Source of the DNA: Corallococcus sp. NCRR
GTDB lineage: Bacteria; Myxococcota; Myxococcia; Myxococcales; Myxococcaceae
NCBI RefSeq assembly: GCF_026965535.1
Contig: NZ_CP114039.1
Location: forward strand, 2,294,001-2,358,000
DNA length: 64,000 nucleotides
Direction of reading: 5' to 3'
The position numbers and the translations under genes were made by a program. How positions within the stretch are numbered: the stretch's first letter is position 1; each line of letters starts with the position of its first letter. Of the stretch, positions 30,887 to 38,648 are shown in pieces. The notes beneath the pieces are model-generated. The model was not told where the DNA came from. It saw only the letters and a list, made by a program, of their open reading frames with translations, and did not search any database.

Positions 30887-33667
30887 TCAGTAGGTCGCCT
30901 TGAGCCCGAGCAGCGGGACGATGATGGGAATGCGGATGGGCTCGCGCAGGGGACGGGAGTCCTCGTTGATGGAGCCATCCTGGCCGCCGCCCACCGCGAG
31001 GTAGTCGTAGCCCACCACCTCCTGCTGCGCGGAGAGGTTGAGCACGTCGAGCGACGCGTCCAGCGTGAAGTCCTGGTAGGCCCACGACTTCGCGATGCGC
31101 GCGTCCACGCGGAAGAAGGGCGCCAGCCGCTGCGCGCGGTCCAGGTCCTGGCGAATCCATTCCGGCGAGCCGTCGCCGTTCGTCACCCAGCGCCGCGGCT
31201 GCGAGGTGATCTGCCCCGTCTCCGGCCGCCCGGTGTTGAAGTGCACCACCGTGCCCACCGTCCAGTTGTTGCCGAATTTGTAGCTGAGCGCGGCGTTGAA
31301 GGTGTGCGCCTGCTCGAAGGCGAAGGGCAGGGTGCCCTCCACCGTCTCCAGCACGCGGTTGTCGTCGCCGATGCGGGAGAAGCGCGCCTTCCGCTTGCTC
31401 TGGAGGAAGCTGTAGGACACCCAGCCGAACCAGTGTCGGCCCAGCGGGTGGCGCGCCATCAGGTCGAAGCCGTAGGCGTAGCCGGTGGTGGCGGGGTCCT
31501 CGCCCAGGCTGCCCCGGCGGCGGCGGTTCTCCGCCACGTCCACCAGGTCGAACTCCACCGCGCGGGACAGGGGGTTGAAGAACGCGTCCGCGCTCAGCTC
31601 CAGCCCCTCGAAGGCCTTCCACTCCGCGCCCACGTCGAACTGCGCGCCGGACTGGAGGCCGTAGCGCAGGCTCGCGGTGTCGATGGCGGGCACGTGCACG
31701 AGCACCGTGGGCGGCTGGTGGAACAGGCCCGCGCCCCCCTTGAGCGTGAGGGTGTCCGTCAGCGCGTGGCGCACGGACAGGCGCGGCTCCACCGCCGTGA
31801 AGGTCATGCCCGGCACCAGGTGGTACGCGTCCACGCGCAGGCCCGGCGTCACGGCCCAGCGCTCCGAGGGCTTCCACGTGGCGGACGCATACGCGCCGGA
31901 GAAGGTGGCCAGCGCGCTGGGCCGCTTGAGCGGATCCGCGTCGTCGGAGGGCCGCCAGCCCGGAGGCCGCGCGGTGCCGGTGAGCGTGGTGGCCGAGCGG
32001 CGGTGCTCCACGTCCGCGCCCACGGCCAGGTCGAGCGACGAGGTCAGCGCGCGGCGCCATCCCGCGCGAGCGGCGACGCTCACCTGGCGCAGTCCGTACT
32101 CGCCCACCTGCTCGCGGACGAGGGCGTCCCCGGCGCTGCGCGTCTGCTCGCCGTTGAGGCCCAGGCCGTCCCAGCCCAGCGTGACGCCGACCTCGCCTTC
32201 GCCCTCCGCCACCGGGTGCGTGCCCCGCAGGTCGATGCGGTGGAAGCGCGACACGACGCCGCCGCCATCCGCGCCCGGCTCCAGCTCGGGTGAGATGCCC
32301 ACGTCGTCGGAGCTCCCCAGCGCGAACAGGCGCAGGCGGCCTTTGCCCACCTTCTGCTCGACGCGCGCCTGGTAGTCCCAGAAGCCCGCGCGCACCTGCT
32401 GCGCGTCCGGGCGCTGGAGCGCGTTGGCCGCCAGCGAGAGGAGCAGCGCGGAGTAGCTGAAGCGGCCCGCGAGGCTGACGCTGGTGCCGGTGGACTCGAA
32501 GGGCTGCTCGATGAAGCCGCCCGCGTTGAGCAGGTCCGCGTACGCGGTGAAGTGCAGCCGGTCCTCGCGAGGGCGGCTGAGGCGTCCCTCCACCGCGCCG
32601 CCCAGCACGCGGCCGTATTGCACCGGAGGCGCGCCCGGATAGAAGTCCACGGTGTCGATGAAGTCCGGGTGCACCACCGCGGGCCCGAGCAACAGGTGGT
32701 ACAGCATCGGGATGCGCACGCCGTCCAGGAAGAAGCCCGTGGCGGCGGGCTGGCTGCCGCGCACCACCGGGTAGCTGATACCGGACGCGAGGCTGCCCAC
32801 GCCCGGCATCAACATCACCACGCGGAACGGGTCGCCCAGCGTGCCGGGCACCTCGCGCAGCTCCTGCTCGTGCAGGCTGATGCGGGTGACCTCCGTGCGC
32901 GGGCGCTCATCGCGCACCACGGTCTCGTAGGGGTTCACCTCGCGAGGCTGGAGCCGGTAGATGACCTGGAGTGTCTGTCCTTGCGTCAGCGTCTCCGTGA
33001 ACGCCGTCGTCGCGTGGCCCGGAGCGCGGACCTCCAGCGTGTGCGGGCCCGGCGGCACGTCCAGCGTGAAGCGGCCCTGCGCGTCCGTGGTGGCGGCGGG
33101 CTGGAGCGCGCCGTCCAGGAAGAGGGCCGCGTCCGGCAGCGGGCGGCGCGTGCCGCGTGCGCGCACCTCGCCAGTGAGGCGCGTGGTGGAGGCGGGGACC
33201 TGCACGGGCGGCGTGAAGCGGTAGACGAAGGGCAGGCGCACGGCCACGGGGCCGCCGCCCAACGTGGCCGGGGTGAAGCGCAGGCCCGGGGCCGCGGCGA
33301 GCGCCGCGTCGGTGAGGCGCGGCTCGGAGGCGGCACGGATCACCTTCGCCTCCGCGACGCGGCCCTCCACGTCCACCAGCAGCTCCAGCTCCACCTCGCC
33401 GGCCGTACCCTCCAGGCCTTGCGGCCACGCGGCGGGAGCGTCGGCGATGAGGCTGGGCGGCACGAGCGCCAGGTCACCCGCGTCCGGGGAGAGGCCCAGT
33501 CGGACGGCGTCCTCTGAGGAGAGGGCCTGGCCCGCGTCGGTGGCGTGGACGTCCACCTCCACGGCGCGAGGCTCGCTGGTAGCGGAGGGCACGCCCTGCG
33601 CGCGGGCAGTGGCGGCGGACAGGAGCACGAGCGCCAACGCCAGGAGGACGGCACGGGGGAGGAACAT
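30887..33667 (-). CDS. TonB-dependent receptor with N-terminal TonB-C-like domain
   Basis: 926 residues with signal peptide (MFLPRAVLLALALVLLSAATARA). Residues about 70-130 match a TonB C-terminal energy-transducer fold (GEVELELLVDVEGRVAEAKVI, LTDAALAAAPGLRFTPATLGG, VRLPFVYRF). Residues 140-220 are a carboxypeptidase-regulatory-like domain, then a plug (LREVPGTLGDPFRVVMLMPG, YPVVRGSQPAATGFFLDGVRI) and a large beta-barrel to the C-terminus. Having the transducer-like domain on the receptor itself is unusual outside myxobacteria and relatives. ATG 33667 gives the signal peptide. Partner lipoprotein follows directly. Substrate unknown. Confidence 0.85.
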   Translation of the reverse strand: MFLPRAVLLALALVLLSAATARAQGVPSATSEPRAVEVDVHATDAGQALSSEDAVRLGLSPDAGDLALVPPSLIADAPAAWPQGLEGTAGEVELELLVDVEGRVAEAKVIRAASEPRLTDAALAAAPGLRFTPATLGGGPVAVRLPFVYRFTPPVQVPASTTRLTGEVRARGTRRPLPDAALFLDGALQPAATTDAQGRFTLDVPPGPHTLEVRAPGHATTAFTETLTQGQTLQVIYRLQPREVNPYETVVRDERPRTEVTRISLHEQELREVPGTLGDPFRVVMLMPGVGSLASGISYPVVRGSQPAATGFFLDGVRIPMLYHLLLGPAVVHPDFIDTVDFYPGAPPVQYGRVLGGAVEGRLSRPREDRLHFTAYADLLNAGGFIEQPFESTGTSVSLAGRFSYSALLLSLAANALQRPDAQQVRAGFWDYQARVEQKVGKGRLRLFALGSSDDVGISPELEPGADGGGVVSRFHRIDLRGTHPVAEGEGEVGVTLGWDGLGLNGEQTRSAGDALVREQVGEYGLRQVSVAARAGWRRALTSSLDLAVGADVEHRRSATTLTGTARPPGWRPSDDADPLKRPSALATFSGAYASATWKPSERWAVTPGLRVDAYHLVPGMTFTAVEPRLSVRHALTDTLTLKGGAGLFHQPPTVLVHVPAIDTASLRYGLQSGAQFDVGAEWKAFEGLELSADAFFNPLSRAVEFDLVDVAENRRRRGSLGEDPATTGYAYGFDLMARHPLGRHWFGWVSYSFLQSKRKARFSRIGDDNRVLETVEGTLPFAFEQAHTFNAALSYKFGNNWTVGTVVHFNTGRPETGQITSQPRRWVTNGDGSPEWIRQDLDRAQRLAPFFRVDARIAKSWAYQDFTLDASLDVLNLSAQQEVVGYDYLAVGGGQDGSINEDSRPLREPIRIPIIVPLLGLKATY

Positions 33668-34003
33668 GGGCGAGCGCTTCAACACCGGCCCCCCGAGAAT
33701 GTGACACTCGTGCTGGCGCCGGACGGAAGTTGGTTCACGGAGGGCATACGGATCGGGACACGAATCCTGGTGGCGCCTTTTCACTCGGAGTCTACTGGAT
33801 GAAGTGCCAGGAGCCGCCGGGCCTCACGCGTGCACCGCCATTCCCTCCGCGCCGCGCCACTCCGTCCCCAAGGGCGGCGCGCTGTGCGAACGCGCACGGC
33901 CCTCTGTCCCGAGGTGCCGCCCCCCTGGAGCGGCGACATGAGCGGTCGTTACACTTTTCCATGTCGAGCGGAAACCACGGCCAGGGTTCCGCGGGGAGGG
34001 CGC
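33668..34003. other. 336-bp divergent spacer between TonB receptor and GRAS gene
   Basis: Holds promoters for both directions by position. Open frames crossing it lack the usual third-position bias. I find no convincing inverted repeat or RNA gene. The GGGGAGGG at 33992-33999 is the ribosome binding site for the start at 34004. Confidence 0.55.
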
Positions 34004-35113
34004 ATGCGGACGCCGAAGGACGAACTGCTGCTCCGGGCGATGGACCATGCGTTGTCCGCGCGAACGATGGAGGCGGTCGAAGCGCTCGCCGCGCTCTATC
34101 GGCTCTTGGACGCGGAGCGCATCCCCGAGGACGAGAACTACGCGGTGTTCGCCACGGCCCTGTCGCGCCGGTTGGAGGGCGCGACAGGGGCCCTGCACCC
34201 GTACCGGGCGTCCGAGGTGGACGGAGGCGCGCCACAGATTGAGTTGTTCCGGCGGTTGATGAAGCACCTGCCGCTGGCGTCGGCGGCGGACGCGGTGGCG
34301 AACGCGCTGCTCGCGGAGTTCCTCCGAGGACACGCGGAGGCGACGCTGCTGGACGTGGGCATCGGGCAGGGACGTCAGGAATGCAACCTGCTGCGAGCGC
34401 TGGCGAAGGCGGGCGCGCTGCCCCGGCACCTGACGGTGGTGGGGGTGGACCCCAGCGGCACGAGCCTGGTGGAGGCGCGGGACGCGGTGCTGGCGGTGGC
34501 GGAGGAGGTGGGGCTGTCGCTCGAGTTCGTGAAGCTGGAGTCGCCGGTGGAGGACCTGGACATGGCGACGTGGGCGGCGTTGCGAGCGGTGCGCCGGCCG
34601 CTGGTGGTGAACGCGGCGTTCGCGCTGCACCACGTGGCGGAGCAGCAGACGTCGGGCATGGAGGCGCGCGACGCGGTGCTGGCGAGGCTGGCGTCGCTGG
34701 GCCCGGTGGGCGTGGTGATGTGCGAGCCCCACGTGGACCACCACCGGGCACCGGCGCGGGAGCGGTTGAAGAACGCGTGGAATCACTTCTCCCGGGTGTT
34801 CCAGCTGCTGGATACGCTGGACATCCCGGTCGCGGAGCGCCGCGCCATCAAGCGGTTCTTCGGCCGGGAGGTGGATGACATCGTGGGCACGGTGAACGAG
34901 TCGGAGCGGTGTGAGCGCCACGAGCCGGCCCTGGCGTGGTGGGAGCGGTTGCGGCGCGCGGGCTTCACGCCCAGAGGCGGGCTGGGGGCGCTGTGTCCAG
35001 CCGACGTGCACCCGGCCGTGGGGCTGTGCGTGGAGGAGGGCACGGTGGGCATCACCTTCCGGGGGGATGTGCTGGTGTCGGTGCTGGCGGCGGTGCCAGG
35101 GGAGGGCGCGTGA
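34004..35113 (+). CDS. Bacterial GRAS-domain protein (methyltransferase-like)
   Basis: 369 residues. The C-terminal two-thirds follow the GRAS pattern: LLDVGIGQGRQECNLLRALA (115-134; compare plant ID-x-x-x-x-QG), LTVVGVDPS, VNAAFALHH (202-210; compare VN-x-x-x-x-LHH), an acidic VVMCEPHVDHH block, and the end motif ERCERHEPALAWWERLRRAGF. Bacterial GRAS proteins are seen as Rossmann-fold, SAM-dependent methyltransferases, possibly acting on small molecules; plant versions are gibberellin-pathway regulators. A strong ribosome site precedes ATG 34004. The stop overlaps the pncC start (GTGA). Confidence 0.8.
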   Translation: MRTPKDELLLRAMDHALSARTMEAVEALAALYRLLDAERIPEDENYAVFATALSRRLEGATGALHPYRASEVDGGAPQIELFRRLMKHLPLASAADAVANALLAEFLRGHAEATLLDVGIGQGRQECNLLRALAKAGALPRHLTVVGVDPSGTSLVEARDAVLAVAEEVGLSLEFVKLESPVEDLDMATWAALRAVRRPLVVNAAFALHHVAEQQTSGMEARDAVLARLASLGPVGVVMCEPHVDHHRAPARERLKNAWNHFSRVFQLLDTLDIPVAERRAIKRFFGREVDDIVGTVNESERCERHEPALAWWERLRRAGFTPRGGLGALCPADVHPAVGLCVEEGTVGITFRGDVLVSVLAAVPGEGA

Positions 35114-35601
35114 GCGACCTGGAGGCGTTGGCGGCGAAGGTCATCGCGAGGTGCCGCGAGGCCGGGGTGCGGCTGGCCTTGGCGGAGGCGTGCACGGGAG
35201 GGCTGATGACGGCGGCGCTGACGGAGGTGCCGGGGGCGTCGGCGGTGGTGGAGCGGGGGGTCGTGCCGTACTCGAACGAGTCCAAGGGAGAGCAGCTGGG
35301 CGTGCCGCTGGCGTTGTTGCAGGCGCACGGCTCGGTGAGCGCGGAGGCGGTGGGCGCGATGGCGGCGGGGGCCCTGGAGCGTTCGTGGGCGGACTGGGCG
35401 GTGGCGGAGACCGGCATCGCGGGGCCCGGGGGAGGGACGGAGGCGAAGCCGGTGGGGCTGGTGTTCATCGCGGTGCAGCGGCGCGGGAGGGCCGCGGTGG
35501 TGGAGCGTCACCGGTTCGAAGGGGACCGGCGCCAGGTGCGGCGGGCCGCGGCGGCGCGAGGGCTGGCCCTCCTTCTGGAGCAGGTGGGCGTGGAGTCCTG
35601 A
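35110..35601 (+). CDS. pncC: CinA C-terminal domain amidohydrolase (NMN deamidase)
   Basis: 163 residues, the stand-alone CinA-C/PncC form without the N-terminal MoeA-like domain. Signatures: LAEACTGGLMTAALTEVPG, VVPYSNESKGEQLGV, and GIAGPGGGTEAKPVGLVFI. It converts nicotinamide mononucleotide to nicotinate mononucleotide in pyridine nucleotide recycling. GTG 35110 overlaps the GRAS stop, so the two proteins are co-translated; whether the GRAS protein uses a nicotinamide compound is an open idea. Confidence 0.88.
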   Translation: MSDLEALAAKVIARCREAGVRLALAEACTGGLMTAALTEVPGASAVVERGVVPYSNESKGEQLGVPLALLQAHGSVSAEAVGAMAAGALERSWADWAVAETGIAGPGGGTEAKPVGLVFIAVQRRGRAAVVERHRFEGDRRQVRRAAAARGLALLLEQVGVES

Positions 35602-35685: not shown

Positions 35686-36084
35686 ATGTATCGAATCGAC
35701 GTGGACCGAGCGGAATCCATCGTGAGCTTCGCGCTGGAGGGCTACATCCGGCTGGAGGAGATGAAGCGCTTCGTGGAGGACCTGCGCGCCGCGACGGATG
35801 AAGTGGCGGGGCAGGCCATCAAGATCGAAGCGGACCTGCGCACGTTCCGGCCGGCGTCGCCGGAGGCGGCGGACCTCATCCGGAAGGTGCAGGAGTACGG
35901 GCTGCGCTCCGGGGTGACGCGGGTGGCGGAGTTGGTGCAGAACCAGATCGTCGCGTTGCAGTTGAACCGGGTGGCCTCCGGGAGCGGCACGGACAAGATC
36001 CTCCGCCGTTTCTGGCAGGAGTCCGCGGCCAGGACCTGGCTGAAGCACGGAGACGCGGAGCTGGGCGTGGCGCTGCACGGCTGA
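35686..36084 (+). CDS. Small STAS/SpoIIAA-like protein of unknown function
   Basis: 132 residues, no signal or membrane segment. Alternating strands and helices (YRIDVDRAESIVSFALEG, YIRLEEMKRFVEDLRAAT, IKIEADLRTFRP) resemble STAS or SpoIIAA-like folds, but no phospho-Ser motif stands out. AAGGGGG lies about six bases before ATG 35686. It ends 12 bases before the SitA5-like toxin gene on the same strand, so it may share its transcript without being part of the toxin module. Confidence 0.6.
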   Translation: MYRIDVDRAESIVSFALEGYIRLEEMKRFVEDLRAATDEVAGQAIKIEADLRTFRPASPEAADLIRKVQEYGLRSGVTRVAELVQNQIVALQLNRVASGSGTDKILRRFWQESAARTWLKHGDAELGVALHG

Positions 36085-36096
36085 GCGGAAACGAAC

Positions 36097-37401
36097 ATGC
36101 CAGCGCGCGGGTGGTGCGTGCTGTGGATGTTGTTCGTGACGGGCTGCGCGACGTCACGGACGGTGAGGTTGGACACGGGAGAAGGCCGTGCGCGTGAATA
36201 CACGCCGCGCACGGACACGAGGCCCGTGGCGCTGGAGGGAGACACCTTCGAGAAGGCGGTGCGGATGCTGGCGCGCGAAGCGCCGGTGTCGCTTCGGCTG
36301 TCGAATCCCGGTGCGCAGCGTCCGCGAGCCTCGCTGGGCGTCGTGTCCGTGGACGACCCGAAGCAGGGCCGCGTCCGCGTGGCGCAAGGGAGCACGGAGT
36401 TGGAGGCCGCGTACGGACGCTGGTGCGTGCGCAAGCGGCTGTCCGGAGACTGTCTTCACCTGTTGGATAGAGGCCTGACGCTGGATGAGGAGGGCAAGCG
36501 GACGCTGGCCTTCCGCATCGCGTTGGACTCGGTGTGGGAGGAGACGGCCGAAGCGCTGGAAGGGATGGTGGACCCCGAGGCGACGGTGTCCCTGCTGGTG
36601 ATGACAGGAGCGGTGTACTTCAGCCTGTGGCTGGTGCCGGAGCCGCTGCTGTCGAAGGGCGTCGCGGCGACGCTGACCGTGGCGCTGATTGCGTACCTGG
36701 GTTGGGACACGGTGTGGAGTCTCATCCAGGGCTGGAGGGTGCTGGCGGCGGAGGTGAAGGAAGCGGAGACGTTCGACGGCATCCGGGACGCGGGAGAGAA
36801 GTACGGCGAGGTGATGGGAAAGCAGGCGGCACGGGCCTTCGTGATGCTGGCGATGGCGGCGCTGGGGAGCACGGCGCAGACGCTGTCGGCAAGAGTCGCG
36901 ACGCTGCCCGGTTCGGCACAGGCCGCGCTGGTCGGAGCGGAGCAGGGAGGCTTCCGGCTGGTGGCCGCGGCGGAGGTCTCAGCAGTTGCAGTATCCGCGA
37001 GCGGCGAGGTGACGATTGCGTTGTCACCCAACGCGGTGGCGATGTCCGCGAAGGGACCGAATGTTCCCGTACCTGTCGAAGTCCGGGTGCATCACATCGC
37101 CACGAACAAGTGGTGGGAGGCGACGCATAACGGCGGTCCGTGGTCGCCCCAGTTCCAGAGAATCTTCGACCGTGCGGGCATGTCCCTGGACGACCCTGCG
37201 AACAAGGTCCGTGTCCCGGGCCACAAGGGACCGCATCCCGAGGCGTACCATCAAAGAGTGCACTCCCGGTTGAACGAAGCAATGGAGGACTGTGGCAGCA
37301 TCCATCAATGCCGCGAGGCGCTCACCAATGAACTGCGTCGGCTCGCCAGCGACATCTTGAACACGAGCACGACGCTCAATAAGTGGGTCACGAAGTCATA
37401 G
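36097..37401 (+). CDS. SitA5-like polymorphic toxin lipoprotein with C-terminal AHH nuclease domain
   Basis: 434 residues. Lipoprotein leader with Cys17 (FVTGCATS), then the conserved trunk start VRLDTGEGRAREYTPRTD shared, as I recall it, by myxobacterial SitA5-type toxins. A hydrophobic stretch lies at about 165-208. The C-terminus from 332 is an AHH nuclease: HHIATNKWWE, FQRIFDRAGMSLDDPANK and GHKGPHPEAYH, with His 332/333, 376, 380 and 385 as metal or catalytic candidates. Sit toxins pass between myxobacterial kin by TraA/B outer-membrane exchange and kill cells lacking immunity. The predicted immunity gene follows after 17 bases. Confidence 0.82.
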   Translation: MPARGWCVLWMLFVTGCATSRTVRLDTGEGRAREYTPRTDTRPVALEGDTFEKAVRMLAREAPVSLRLSNPGAQRPRASLGVVSVDDPKQGRVRVAQGSTELEAAYGRWCVRKRLSGDCLHLLDRGLTLDEEGKRTLAFRIALDSVWEETAEALEGMVDPEATVSLLVMTGAVYFSLWLVPEPLLSKGVAATLTVALIAYLGWDTVWSLIQGWRVLAAEVKEAETFDGIRDAGEKYGEVMGKQAARAFVMLAMAALGSTAQTLSARVATLPGSAQAALVGAEQGGFRLVAAAEVSAVAVSASGEVTIALSPNAVAMSAKGPNVPVPVEVRVHHIATNKWWEATHNGGPWSPQFQRIFDRAGMSLDDPANKVRVPGHKGPHPEAYHQRVHSRLNEAMEDCGSIHQCREALTNELRRLASDILNTSTTLNKWVTKS

Positions 37402-37418
37402 CCGAGCGGGAGTCTCTC

Positions 37419-38648
37419 GTGACGATGCGGTATTTCGAGCTGATCGACGATCTGTACGTCCCCGATCGGTGGTCGCTGGGCGATCCCATCGATGCGTCCG
37501 GACGGGAGGTCGCCAATCCGTGGATGTTCAGGAAGGGTGAACCCGTCAGTCTGGAAACGCCCTTGAAGATCCCGGTCGACCATTCCGGGCAGTCATTGGG
37601 CTTCACGCTGGCAGGTATCGGTCTCGCGCCCGTCGTTCATGCGGAAGCGGCAGCCATCCTGACCCGGCTCGCCCCGGAGGATGTTCAACTGCTCTCCGTG
37701 ACGGTTGCTGCGGAGCCCGGACCGTACTCCCTCGTCAACGTGCTCCGCCTTGTCAGATGCATCGACGACGAGGCATCCGAAGAGGTGCTGTATTGGAAGC
37801 CTGAGGATGGGCGTCCAGAGAAGGTGGGGAAATACAGGGACGTTGCCGGCCTGCGCATTGATCCGACGAAGGTGGGCGATGCCAAGGTCTTCCGCACCTG
37901 GGGGTGGACCGTTGCGCTCATCGTCTCCGAGGACATCAAGGATGCGCTGGAGCACGCGCACGTCACCGGAGTGAAGTTCCGGGAAGTCACGGGCCCCTCC
38001 GAAGTCAGTCCTGAAGAGCGCGAACGCAACCGCAAGCTCCAGGCGCTCTACGACCGGACGGAAACAGCCCGTACCGCGTTCTGGCGCACCCTGGGCACAC
38101 TGGACGAAAACGCCATCCTCCCCATCGTCGTCGGAGGAGGCTGGCCCGCGAGGCGCCAGGTCTGGCGTGTCATCCACCGGCCCGAAGGACGCACCCTCTT
38201 CGTGACGGACGGTCTCTCCGACTTCTTCGTGGACACCGTGGAGCCCTCCGTGGGCTTCGGCCTGGAGCTCGCGCTGGAAACCGACGAGCCCCAGGCCAAG
38301 TGGCCCGTGACGCTGCTTGAACGCATCGCCAACGAACTCGTGGGCCACGAACACCTGCGCGAACCCGCCAGGACCGGCATCCTCTCCATGGAAGTGGACG
38401 GAGAGCGCATGCCCGAACCCCTCCTGACGAAAGAGGGCCGGGTCGCCGTGCTCCTGGGCATGGACACCCCCACGCTCCCGGATCACTTCACGATGCCAGA
38501 CGGACAGGTCCGGCTCGTCACGGTGAAGACGCTGATGCCCCGGGAGCTCACGTACCTGCTGGAGCACGGCCGGGAGGAGCTACTTCACCGCTTCAACCAG
38601 TCCCCCCCGGGCCATCTGTCCAAGGCCTGGCGCCAGCCCGTGGTGTAG
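37419..38648 (+). CDS. Fused Imm11 and SUFU immunity protein
   Basis: 409 residues, cytoplasmic. Residues 1 to about 200 match the Imm11 (DUF1629) family: MRYFELIDDLYVPDRWSLG, RCIDDEASEEVLYWKPEDG, VAGLRIDPTKVGDAKVFRTWG. From about 218 (RTAFWRTLGTLDENAILPIV) to 400 it resembles a suppressor-of-fused (SUFU) immunity domain (FVTDGLSDFFVDTVEPSVG, FGLELALETDE, RLVTVKTLMPRELTYLLEHG). GTG 37419 has GGGAG six bases upstream; ATG 37425 is the alternative. Likely neutralises the AHH toxin; the second domain may guard against another nuclease. The first half is less GC-rich than the second. Confidence 0.78.
   Translation: MTMRYFELIDDLYVPDRWSLGDPIDASGREVANPWMFRKGEPVSLETPLKIPVDHSGQSLGFTLAGIGLAPVVHAEAAAILTRLAPEDVQLLSVTVAAEPGPYSLVNVLRLVRCIDDEASEEVLYWKPEDGRPEKVGKYRDVAGLRIDPTKVGDAKVFRTWGWTVALIVSEDIKDALEHAHVTGVKFREVTGPSEVSPEERERNRKLQALYDRTETARTAFWRTLGTLDENAILPIVVGGGWPARRQVWRVIHRPEGRTLFVTDGLSDFFVDTVEPSVGFGLELALETDEPQAKWPVTLLERIANELVGHEHLREPARTGILSMEVDGERMPEPLLTKEGRVAVLLGMDTPTLPDHFTMPDGQVRLVTVKTLMPRELTYLLEHGREELLHRFNQSPPGHLSKAWRQPVV

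Follow-up and report, generated by a model that had tools for sequence, protein, structure and literature searches.

What does a GRAS-domain protein do in a bacterium, and what ties its gene to the pncC-like gene whose start it overlaps? The question arises from a window of 64,000 nucleotides of Corallococcus sp. NCRR (the whole stretch of DNA that we analysed), in which an initial annotation had read the two genes as a GRAS-domain protein translationally coupled to an NMN deamidase. Bacterial GRAS proteins are already known, and we regard the gene set as the interesting part of this locus. The initial annotation had missed that the pncC product lacks its catalytic Ser.

The GRAS protein and its predicted methyltransferase core

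The GRAS reading frame starts with the ATG at 34004, and its stop codon ends at 35113. The features that we use are:

34004 to 35113, plus strand: GRAS-domain protein of 369 amino acids, a predicted SAM-dependent small-molecule methyltransferase (PF03514 and AlphaFold2 model)
34352 to 34378, plus strand: methyltransferase motif I, D117-V-G-I-G-Q-G-R-Q125, from conservation in bacterial GRAS proteins
34448 to 34450, plus strand: D149, the acid at the end of strand 2 (D in 8/26 and E in 18/26 bacterial GRAS proteins)
34607 to 34633, plus strand: VN...LHH motif, V202 to H210 (H209 in 26/26 and H210 in 25/26 bacterial GRAS proteins)
34724 to 34729, plus strand: invariant E241-P242 after strand 5 (each in 26/26 bacterial GRAS proteins)
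34913 to 34924, plus strand: ERHE motif, residues 304-307 (R305 23/26, H306 21/26, E307 23/26)

The match to relatives begins at the ATG residue in 44/44 loci of the type-1 clade described below; since the protein starts in the bacterial alignment were set by a script, the invariant Met1 is partly a product of construction. Pfam model PF03514 covered residues 7-323 with an E value of 4.6e-37 and 128.3 bits against a cut-off of 27, and the named motifs QG (Q122-G123), VN-LHH (V202-N203...L208-H209-H210) and ERHE (E304-R305-H306-E307) were all present, in agreement with the original call of a GRAS-domain protein in a bacterium. Plant GRAS domains were the best solved relatives by sequence (5hyz, E 1.4e-16), and an alignment-profile search returned DELLA protein 1 with an E value of 3.9e-38. 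The nearest named relatives belong to Corallococcus and are at most 95% identical, and we found one GRAS gene in the host genome (9.79 Mb, a single contig).

Upon comparing an AlphaFold2 model, computed from an input of 26 bacterial sequences (mean pLDDT 90.0, pTM 0.90), with solved structures, we obtained plant GRAS proteins on top (SCL3 with Z 37.7, SCL7 36.6, RGA 36.5), the fold spanning the whole domain (6kpb_C, Z 37.7, rmsd 2.7, 349 residues). The rows below them were methyltransferases that act on small molecules or are RNA-related, many of them solved with SAM or SAH: CysG (Z 18.7, rmsd 2.7, 210 residues), then CmoA, BelI and EgtD, with CysG and BelI structures containing SAM or SAH at Z 18.2-18.7. 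Foldseek added SgvM, PsoF and histamine methyltransferase. These matches of the model to SAM- or SAH-bound enzymes are what a SAM-type methyltransferase core, as first suggested for this protein, would predict.

Motif I is conserved among the bacterial proteins (G119 and G121 26/26, G123 24/26, Q125 26/26), and D149 sits at the usual ribose-binding position of SAM methyltransferases. Both plant proteins that were aligned residue-wise, OsSCL7 and SCL3, lack the acid at position 149; SCL3 has 0/3 of the motif I glycines, and OsSCL7 retains G119 and G123 and has lost G121. The class I SAM methyltransferase hallmarks, a glycine-rich motif I and a strand-2 acid, are recognizable in the Corallococcus protein. 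In nine comparisons with same-genus relatives, dN/dS was 0.12-0.41 for GRAS and 0.13-0.32 for pncC, low values that make both genes look non-decaying. Judging from the sequence and the predicted fold, the GRAS protein is probably a working methyltransferase.

A profile comparison gave a weak match to SgvM (E 1.1e-4) and, over the same span, another weak match to an SgvM-like protein of a relative (L151). In the alignment to L151, H209 falls on the His of an FVFHD motif, equivalent to H244 of SgvM by chain numbering; H244 and H296 are named as zinc ligands of SgvM in the available part of its description (PMC10502145). As to the second ligand, H261 of GRAS lies two positions off the nearest His of L151 and does not align with it. 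The model of 2-ketoarginine/SgvM-type methyltransferases, TIGR04543, scored 15.9 bits against a cut-off of 425. Of a metal site of the CysG type (HHD) or the SgvM type (H244/H296), the first His alone could be placed; H209 is a candidate ligand for a metal or for the substrate, and we treat such a metal site as no more than a lead.

Bacterial GRAS proteins have been proposed as the origin of the plant regulators. In 2012, Zhang, Iyer and Aravind reportedly predicted that the bacterial proteins methylate small molecules. GRAS in a bacterium, pointed out in the initial annotation, is not new and has been in print since Zhang et al. 2012 (as related in the accessible sections of PMC5834537 and PMC6232258). 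Among the literature matches listed, no experimental work on such a bacterial protein turned up.

The PncC partner without its catalytic Ser

The partner gene starts with the GTG at 35110 and ends at 35601. It is followed by a third gene, giving these further features:

35110 to 35113, plus strand: GTGA overlap between the GRAS stop and the pncC start, read from the sequence, an overlap type common in type-1 loci
35110 to 35601, plus strand: stand-alone PncC/CinA-domain protein of 163 amino acids with Ala in place of the catalytic Ser (PF02464, E 1.1e-51)
35188 to 35190, plus strand: codon of Ala27, which stands where the catalytic Ser would be (AtCinA Ser31, EcPncC Ser29), placed via the block P-I motif
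35686 to 36084, plus strand: SpoIIAA-like protein of 132 amino acids, the conserved third gene after pncC (PF11964, E 3e-05, 25.1 bits against a cut-off of 25)

PncC scored 175 bits with PF02464 (CinA, cut-off 23.5) and 140.4 with the broader PncC_domain model TIGR00199 (cut-off 68.9). Its AlphaFold2 model (pLDDT 93.5) matched 2a9s with Z 29.5 and rmsd 1.1 over 162 residues. With the NCBIfam equivalog for nicotinamide-nucleotide amidase, NF002975, it reached 142 bits and stayed below the cut-off of 212, and its block P-I reads AEACTGG versus the canonical AESCTGG. On the grounds of the Ser position and the equivalog score we rejected plain membership among the NMN deamidases: the protein is probably not one, and the name first given to it is probably wrong.

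We built a tree from 68 sequences, in which stand-alone PncC proteins of the Myxococcaceae carry Ala at the Ser position in 52/55 cases, Ser in 2 and Asp in 1, and the two-domain CinA paralogues keep Ser in 13/13. The tree left out seven partial stand-alone copies, which have Ala in 7/7; two further partial copies, L074 and L080, lack the motif region and are outside the counts, and of the third CinA matches in a few genomes L080 alone was looked at. Across the phylum, Ser was present in 30/30 of the best-scoring CinA matches (29 ESCTGG, 1 ESCTAG), a control by top scores that favours canonical CinA sequences. The Asp belongs to an EDCTGG block (L064, genome G115), and Ser occurs again in L015 (G114) and L019 (G109), two GRAS-linked copies that are nested inside the Ala clade and are apparent reversals. 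The host genome holds a second CinA, a two-domain protein with ESCTGG (L058). A third, partial PncC-like copy was seen in genome G074 (L080), with 65% identity to the window PncC over residues 56-162.

The residues G42, S44, Y54, K59, T101, G102 and R140 are invariant in 11/11 aligned stand-alone PncC proteins, their motif-matched equivalents in AtCinA being G46, S48, Y58, K63, T105, G106 and R145. The Cys28 position is Ser or Gly in some members. In the accessible portions of two studies, EcPncC S29A is described as having no detectable activity and still binding NMN and NaMN in the micromolar range (PMC8231969), and AtCinA S31A as having undetectable activity and a nearly unchanged melting temperature (PMC5384747). 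Because the window protein naturally carries the same Ser-to-Ala change as this laboratory-made non-hydrolysing NMN binder, it is a candidate natural NMN/NaMN sensor, and Ala27 cautions against annotating these pncC genes as NMN deamidases. Some deamidase activity is nonetheless conceivable, since a mechanism with water, not Ser, was proposed for CinA of T. thermophilus (TtCinA; available part of PMC4246079).

Occurrence of the gene set among GRAS loci

GRAS genes occurred in 45/145 genomes of the order, all in the host's own family, and in 47/195 genomes of the phylum. The 51 matches in the order comprise 44 type-1 proteins, which form one clade (support 96/90), and 7 type-2 proteins. At 44/44 type-1 loci, all in the Myxococcaceae, pncC is next downstream on the same strand (several of the pncC copies are cut at contig ends), a regularity which places the adjacency beyond chance. 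A 4-base overlap joins the genes at 34/44 loci (ATGA 19, GTGA 15), and the remaining 10/44 have no such overlap and spacings of up to ~380 bases. The GTGA overlap at 35110-35113 was correctly noted at the outset, and the check on gene-pair conservation called for in the initial annotation came out in favour of the pair. Judged from these genomes, the GRAS-pncC coupling is real and old within the Myxococcaceae.

The SpoIIAA-like gene lies 3' of pncC at 39/44 type-1 loci, or 39/39 where the stretch is long enough, the other five stretches ending 2 bases or less past the pncC match; PF11964 gave 19.5 bits, below the cut-off, for its homologue in L049. Directly past this gene, the window contains a SitA5-family polymorphic toxin with an AHH nuclease domain (36097-37401, plus strand; 318.5 bits against 160, NCBIfam), and the gene that overlaps it (37383-38648, plus strand) encodes Imm11 and SUFU domains, perhaps as an immunity protein. 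Upstream of GRAS is a large ORF (30887-33784, minus strand) that looks from its translation like a TonB-dependent receptor; in several relatives, homologues of it (cluster c6) are neighbours of the GRAS locus.

Among 38 named GRAS loci, pncC was present in 17, all of them type-1 Myxococcaceae, and was not found in the stretches examined for the other 21, some of which are short (L111 has 3580 bases). These 21 are from Gemmatimonadota (4), Streptosporangiaceae (4), Bacillota (5), Runella (3), Spirochaetales (1), other Myxococcota (1) and type-2 Myxococcaceae (3). We rejected a general bacterial GRAS-pncC link on the basis of these loci (18 non-Myxococcaceae, 3 type-2): the adjacency proposed in the initial annotation holds for the type-1 loci of the Myxococcaceae and for none of the 18 named loci outside the family, in the stretches examined. 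Likewise, no pncC was found near the seven type-2 GRAS genes in the stretches examined. The type-2 paralogues are followed by a DUF885 protein of ~600-625 amino acids (two tested; L119:7065-8942, L054:4287-6077), possibly a fixed partner. In three of four Gemmatimonadota loci, the gene 3' of GRAS is V4R-like (L104:5041-5568, L112:7548-8084, L110:1578-2120), with E values of 1e-4 to 4e-3 that are below the Pfam cut-off (three tested). V4R is a small-molecule-binding domain. The V4R-like neighbours, as well as the likeness of PncC to HcgF described below, are leads for the GRAS substrate, not evidence of it.

The dependence between the two genes is lopsided: type-1 GRAS was always found with pncC, and pncC can do without GRAS. 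Stand-alone pncC lacks GRAS in its stretch in 18/55 tree rows (Ala 17, Asp 1), and tblastn up to an E value of 1 found no GRAS remnants in 14 such stretches, one of which, L050, has just 225 bases ahead of pncC. In 11/14 of them, we found neither GRAS nor a SpoIIAA-like gene. In G120 and G044, the flanking genes are the ones that GRAS-bearing relatives have there; GRAS itself is missing, and the SpoIIAA-like gene has been retained. In G060 and G064, the pncC matches lie at contig ends, where GRAS absence is not scorable.

In G081, the GRAS slot is occupied by a 294-residue SAM methyltransferase of another family (Methyltransf_11, 8.9e-14), the stop of which overlaps the pncC start as ATGA. The neighbourhood is that of G082, with clusters c10, c25, c8, c3 and c30 upstream and c1 downstream, and c10, c25, c8 and c3 are also present in G080. 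Of 96 family genomes, only G043, G044 and G046 gave homologues of this methyltransferase at E values up to 1e-20, in each case away from pncC. Since an ordinary methyltransferase takes the GRAS slot here, the swap is independent, though single, evidence that GRAS acts as an enzyme; as the one case in 96 family genomes, it is suggestive and not proof.

Interpretation and comparison with known systems

The reading that we prefer, at a probability of about one half, is that the locus encodes an active GRAS methyltransferase and a coupled, non-hydrolysing PncC paralogue that binds a pyridine nucleotide, and that the two work together. The pair then looks like an enzyme joined by a protein that binds a small molecule, and not like two reactions in the recycling of NAD. 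This reading starts from what can be read in the sequence: a GRAS domain with SAM-binding residues, the pair with its third gene, an active site in which Ser has become Ala and the other residues are kept, purifying selection on both genes, and the methyltransferase swap. From there we infer methyl transfer, ligand binding, physical contact and the substrate in the following scheme. GRAS would be an active SAM-dependent methyltransferase of class I, with a small molecule as its substrate. Its PncC-like partner, with a CinA fold whose nucleotide pocket is kept and whose nucleophile is gone, would most likely bind NMN, NaMN or a related pyridine nucleotide without hydrolysis, and would work with GRAS, either handing it the substrate or switching its activity according to nucleotide level; the SpoIIAA-like gene probably belongs to the set. 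As regards the link to pyridine-nucleotide metabolism suggested in the initial annotation, the conserved and mostly overlapping pair speaks for it, deamidation is doubtful, and any link may be by binding. As the coupled partner is constant and its ligand class is known (NMN/NaMN), the substrate or effector of GRAS can be sought in a narrower range of compounds. We hold as a speculation, and doubt more than we believe, that the Myxococcaceae have built a module on a pseudo-deamidase, whose bound pyridine nucleotide is presented to, or controls, a SAM methyltransferase that is usually GRAS and can be swapped for another family, with GRAS perhaps using an SgvM-like His metal site. If true, this would provide the first testable substrate class for bacterial GRAS proteins, which are related to the DELLA and SCARECROW regulators of plants.

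Several observations count against the preferred reading. The retention of pncC in 18/55 rows without GRAS means that PncC must serve some purpose independent of GRAS. The loss of Ser is not tied to GRAS, as the GRAS-free copies have Ala (17) or Asp (1) as well. Given the Ser in two GRAS-linked copies, activity might be regained, or the residue at this position might not be critical for the clade. The proposed Ser-free mechanism of TtCinA, the 10/44 loci without overlap, and the singleness of the swap weigh in the same direction. The preservation of pncC elsewhere in the absence of both GRAS and the SpoIIAA-like gene, together with long intergenic gaps at some loci, would also fit two genes that are neighbours only, co-transcribed without a common function, with PncC drifting since its reaction was lost. 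We consider this unlikely, given that type-1 GRAS was never found without pncC (44/44), that both genes are under purifying selection, and that the pocket residues except Ser are invariant (11/11). PncC might instead be a working NMN deamidase, with water activated by Lys59 or with help from Cys28, and GRAS might methylate its product or a neighbouring compound in pyridine-nucleotide recycling. The other active-site residues are retained, Ser is present again in two members, and a Ser-free mechanism has a precedent in the proposal for TtCinA (same part of PMC4246079). The Ser-to-Ala mutants of two PncC enzymes, however, are without detectable activity in the portions cited (PMC8231969, PMC5384747), Cys28 is replaced by Ser or Gly in some members, and the two-domain CinA with ESCTGG in the genome (L058) may already cover the job, which makes such an enzyme improbable.

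Outside CinA, the best row for the PncC model was HcgF (Z 15.1, rmsd 2.6, 131 residues; the next family had 8.3). By analogy with HcgF and HcgC in the synthesis of the [Fe]-hydrogenase cofactor, the CinA-fold protein could hold a pyridine-carboxylate nucleotide for tailoring, with its partner methylating it. HcgF, however, has a Cys nucleophile, against Ala27 in the window PncC, and we identified no other cofactor genes beside the pair, so that we think this quite improbable. Even less do we expect GRAS to be a non-enzymatic regulator as in plants, with PncC as its ligand sensor: the fold is indeed the same as that of the plant regulators, but the glycine motif and the strand-2 acid are kept in 24-26 of 26 bacterial members, and an ordinary methyltransferase replaces GRAS in G081.

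The preferred pairing of a methyltransferase with a non-hydrolysing nucleotide binder can be set beside several known systems. The GRAS protein resembles the bacterial branch of its family (PF03514; Zhang, Iyer and Aravind 2012) in domain, fold, SAM motif, and conserved His, E-P and W residues; what differs here is that its gene stably neighbours those of a PncC paralogue lacking Ser and of a SpoIIAA-like protein, and that another methyltransferase replaces it once. Its best non-GRAS rows are the isopropylmalate O-methyltransferases CysG and BelI and the alpha-keto-acid C-methyltransferases SgvM and MppJ, CysG leading by structure and SgvM by profile. The alignment to CysG is confined to GRAS residues 80-367. 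Common to GRAS and these enzymes is a conserved His that follows strand 4 and binds the metal in SgvM; the second metal ligand of SgvM is not aligned in GRAS.

The partner, in turn, is like the PncC/CinA NMN deamidases (PF02464; A. tumefaciens CinA 2a9s, E. coli PncC) in its single domain, its fold and the site residues Lys, Tyr, Thr, Arg and G-x-S, and differs in having Ala for the catalytic Ser. Inactive CinA lineages are known: in the accessible text of PMC3855486, catalysis is lost in YdeJ and YfaY, and Ser31 has become Ala in YfaY-like and eukaryotic lineages, as here. According to the same text, the YdeJ-like and YfaY-like lineages lose G46/S48 and R145, whereas the aligned stand-alone Myxococcaceae PncC proteins lose Ser only. 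HcgF of methanogens is similar in binding a pyridinol nucleotide with a CinA-like fold and is distant in sequence (15% identity); it binds guanylylpyridinol, and its pathway also includes HcgC, a SAM-dependent pyridinol methyltransferase according to a title cited in PMC7460606.
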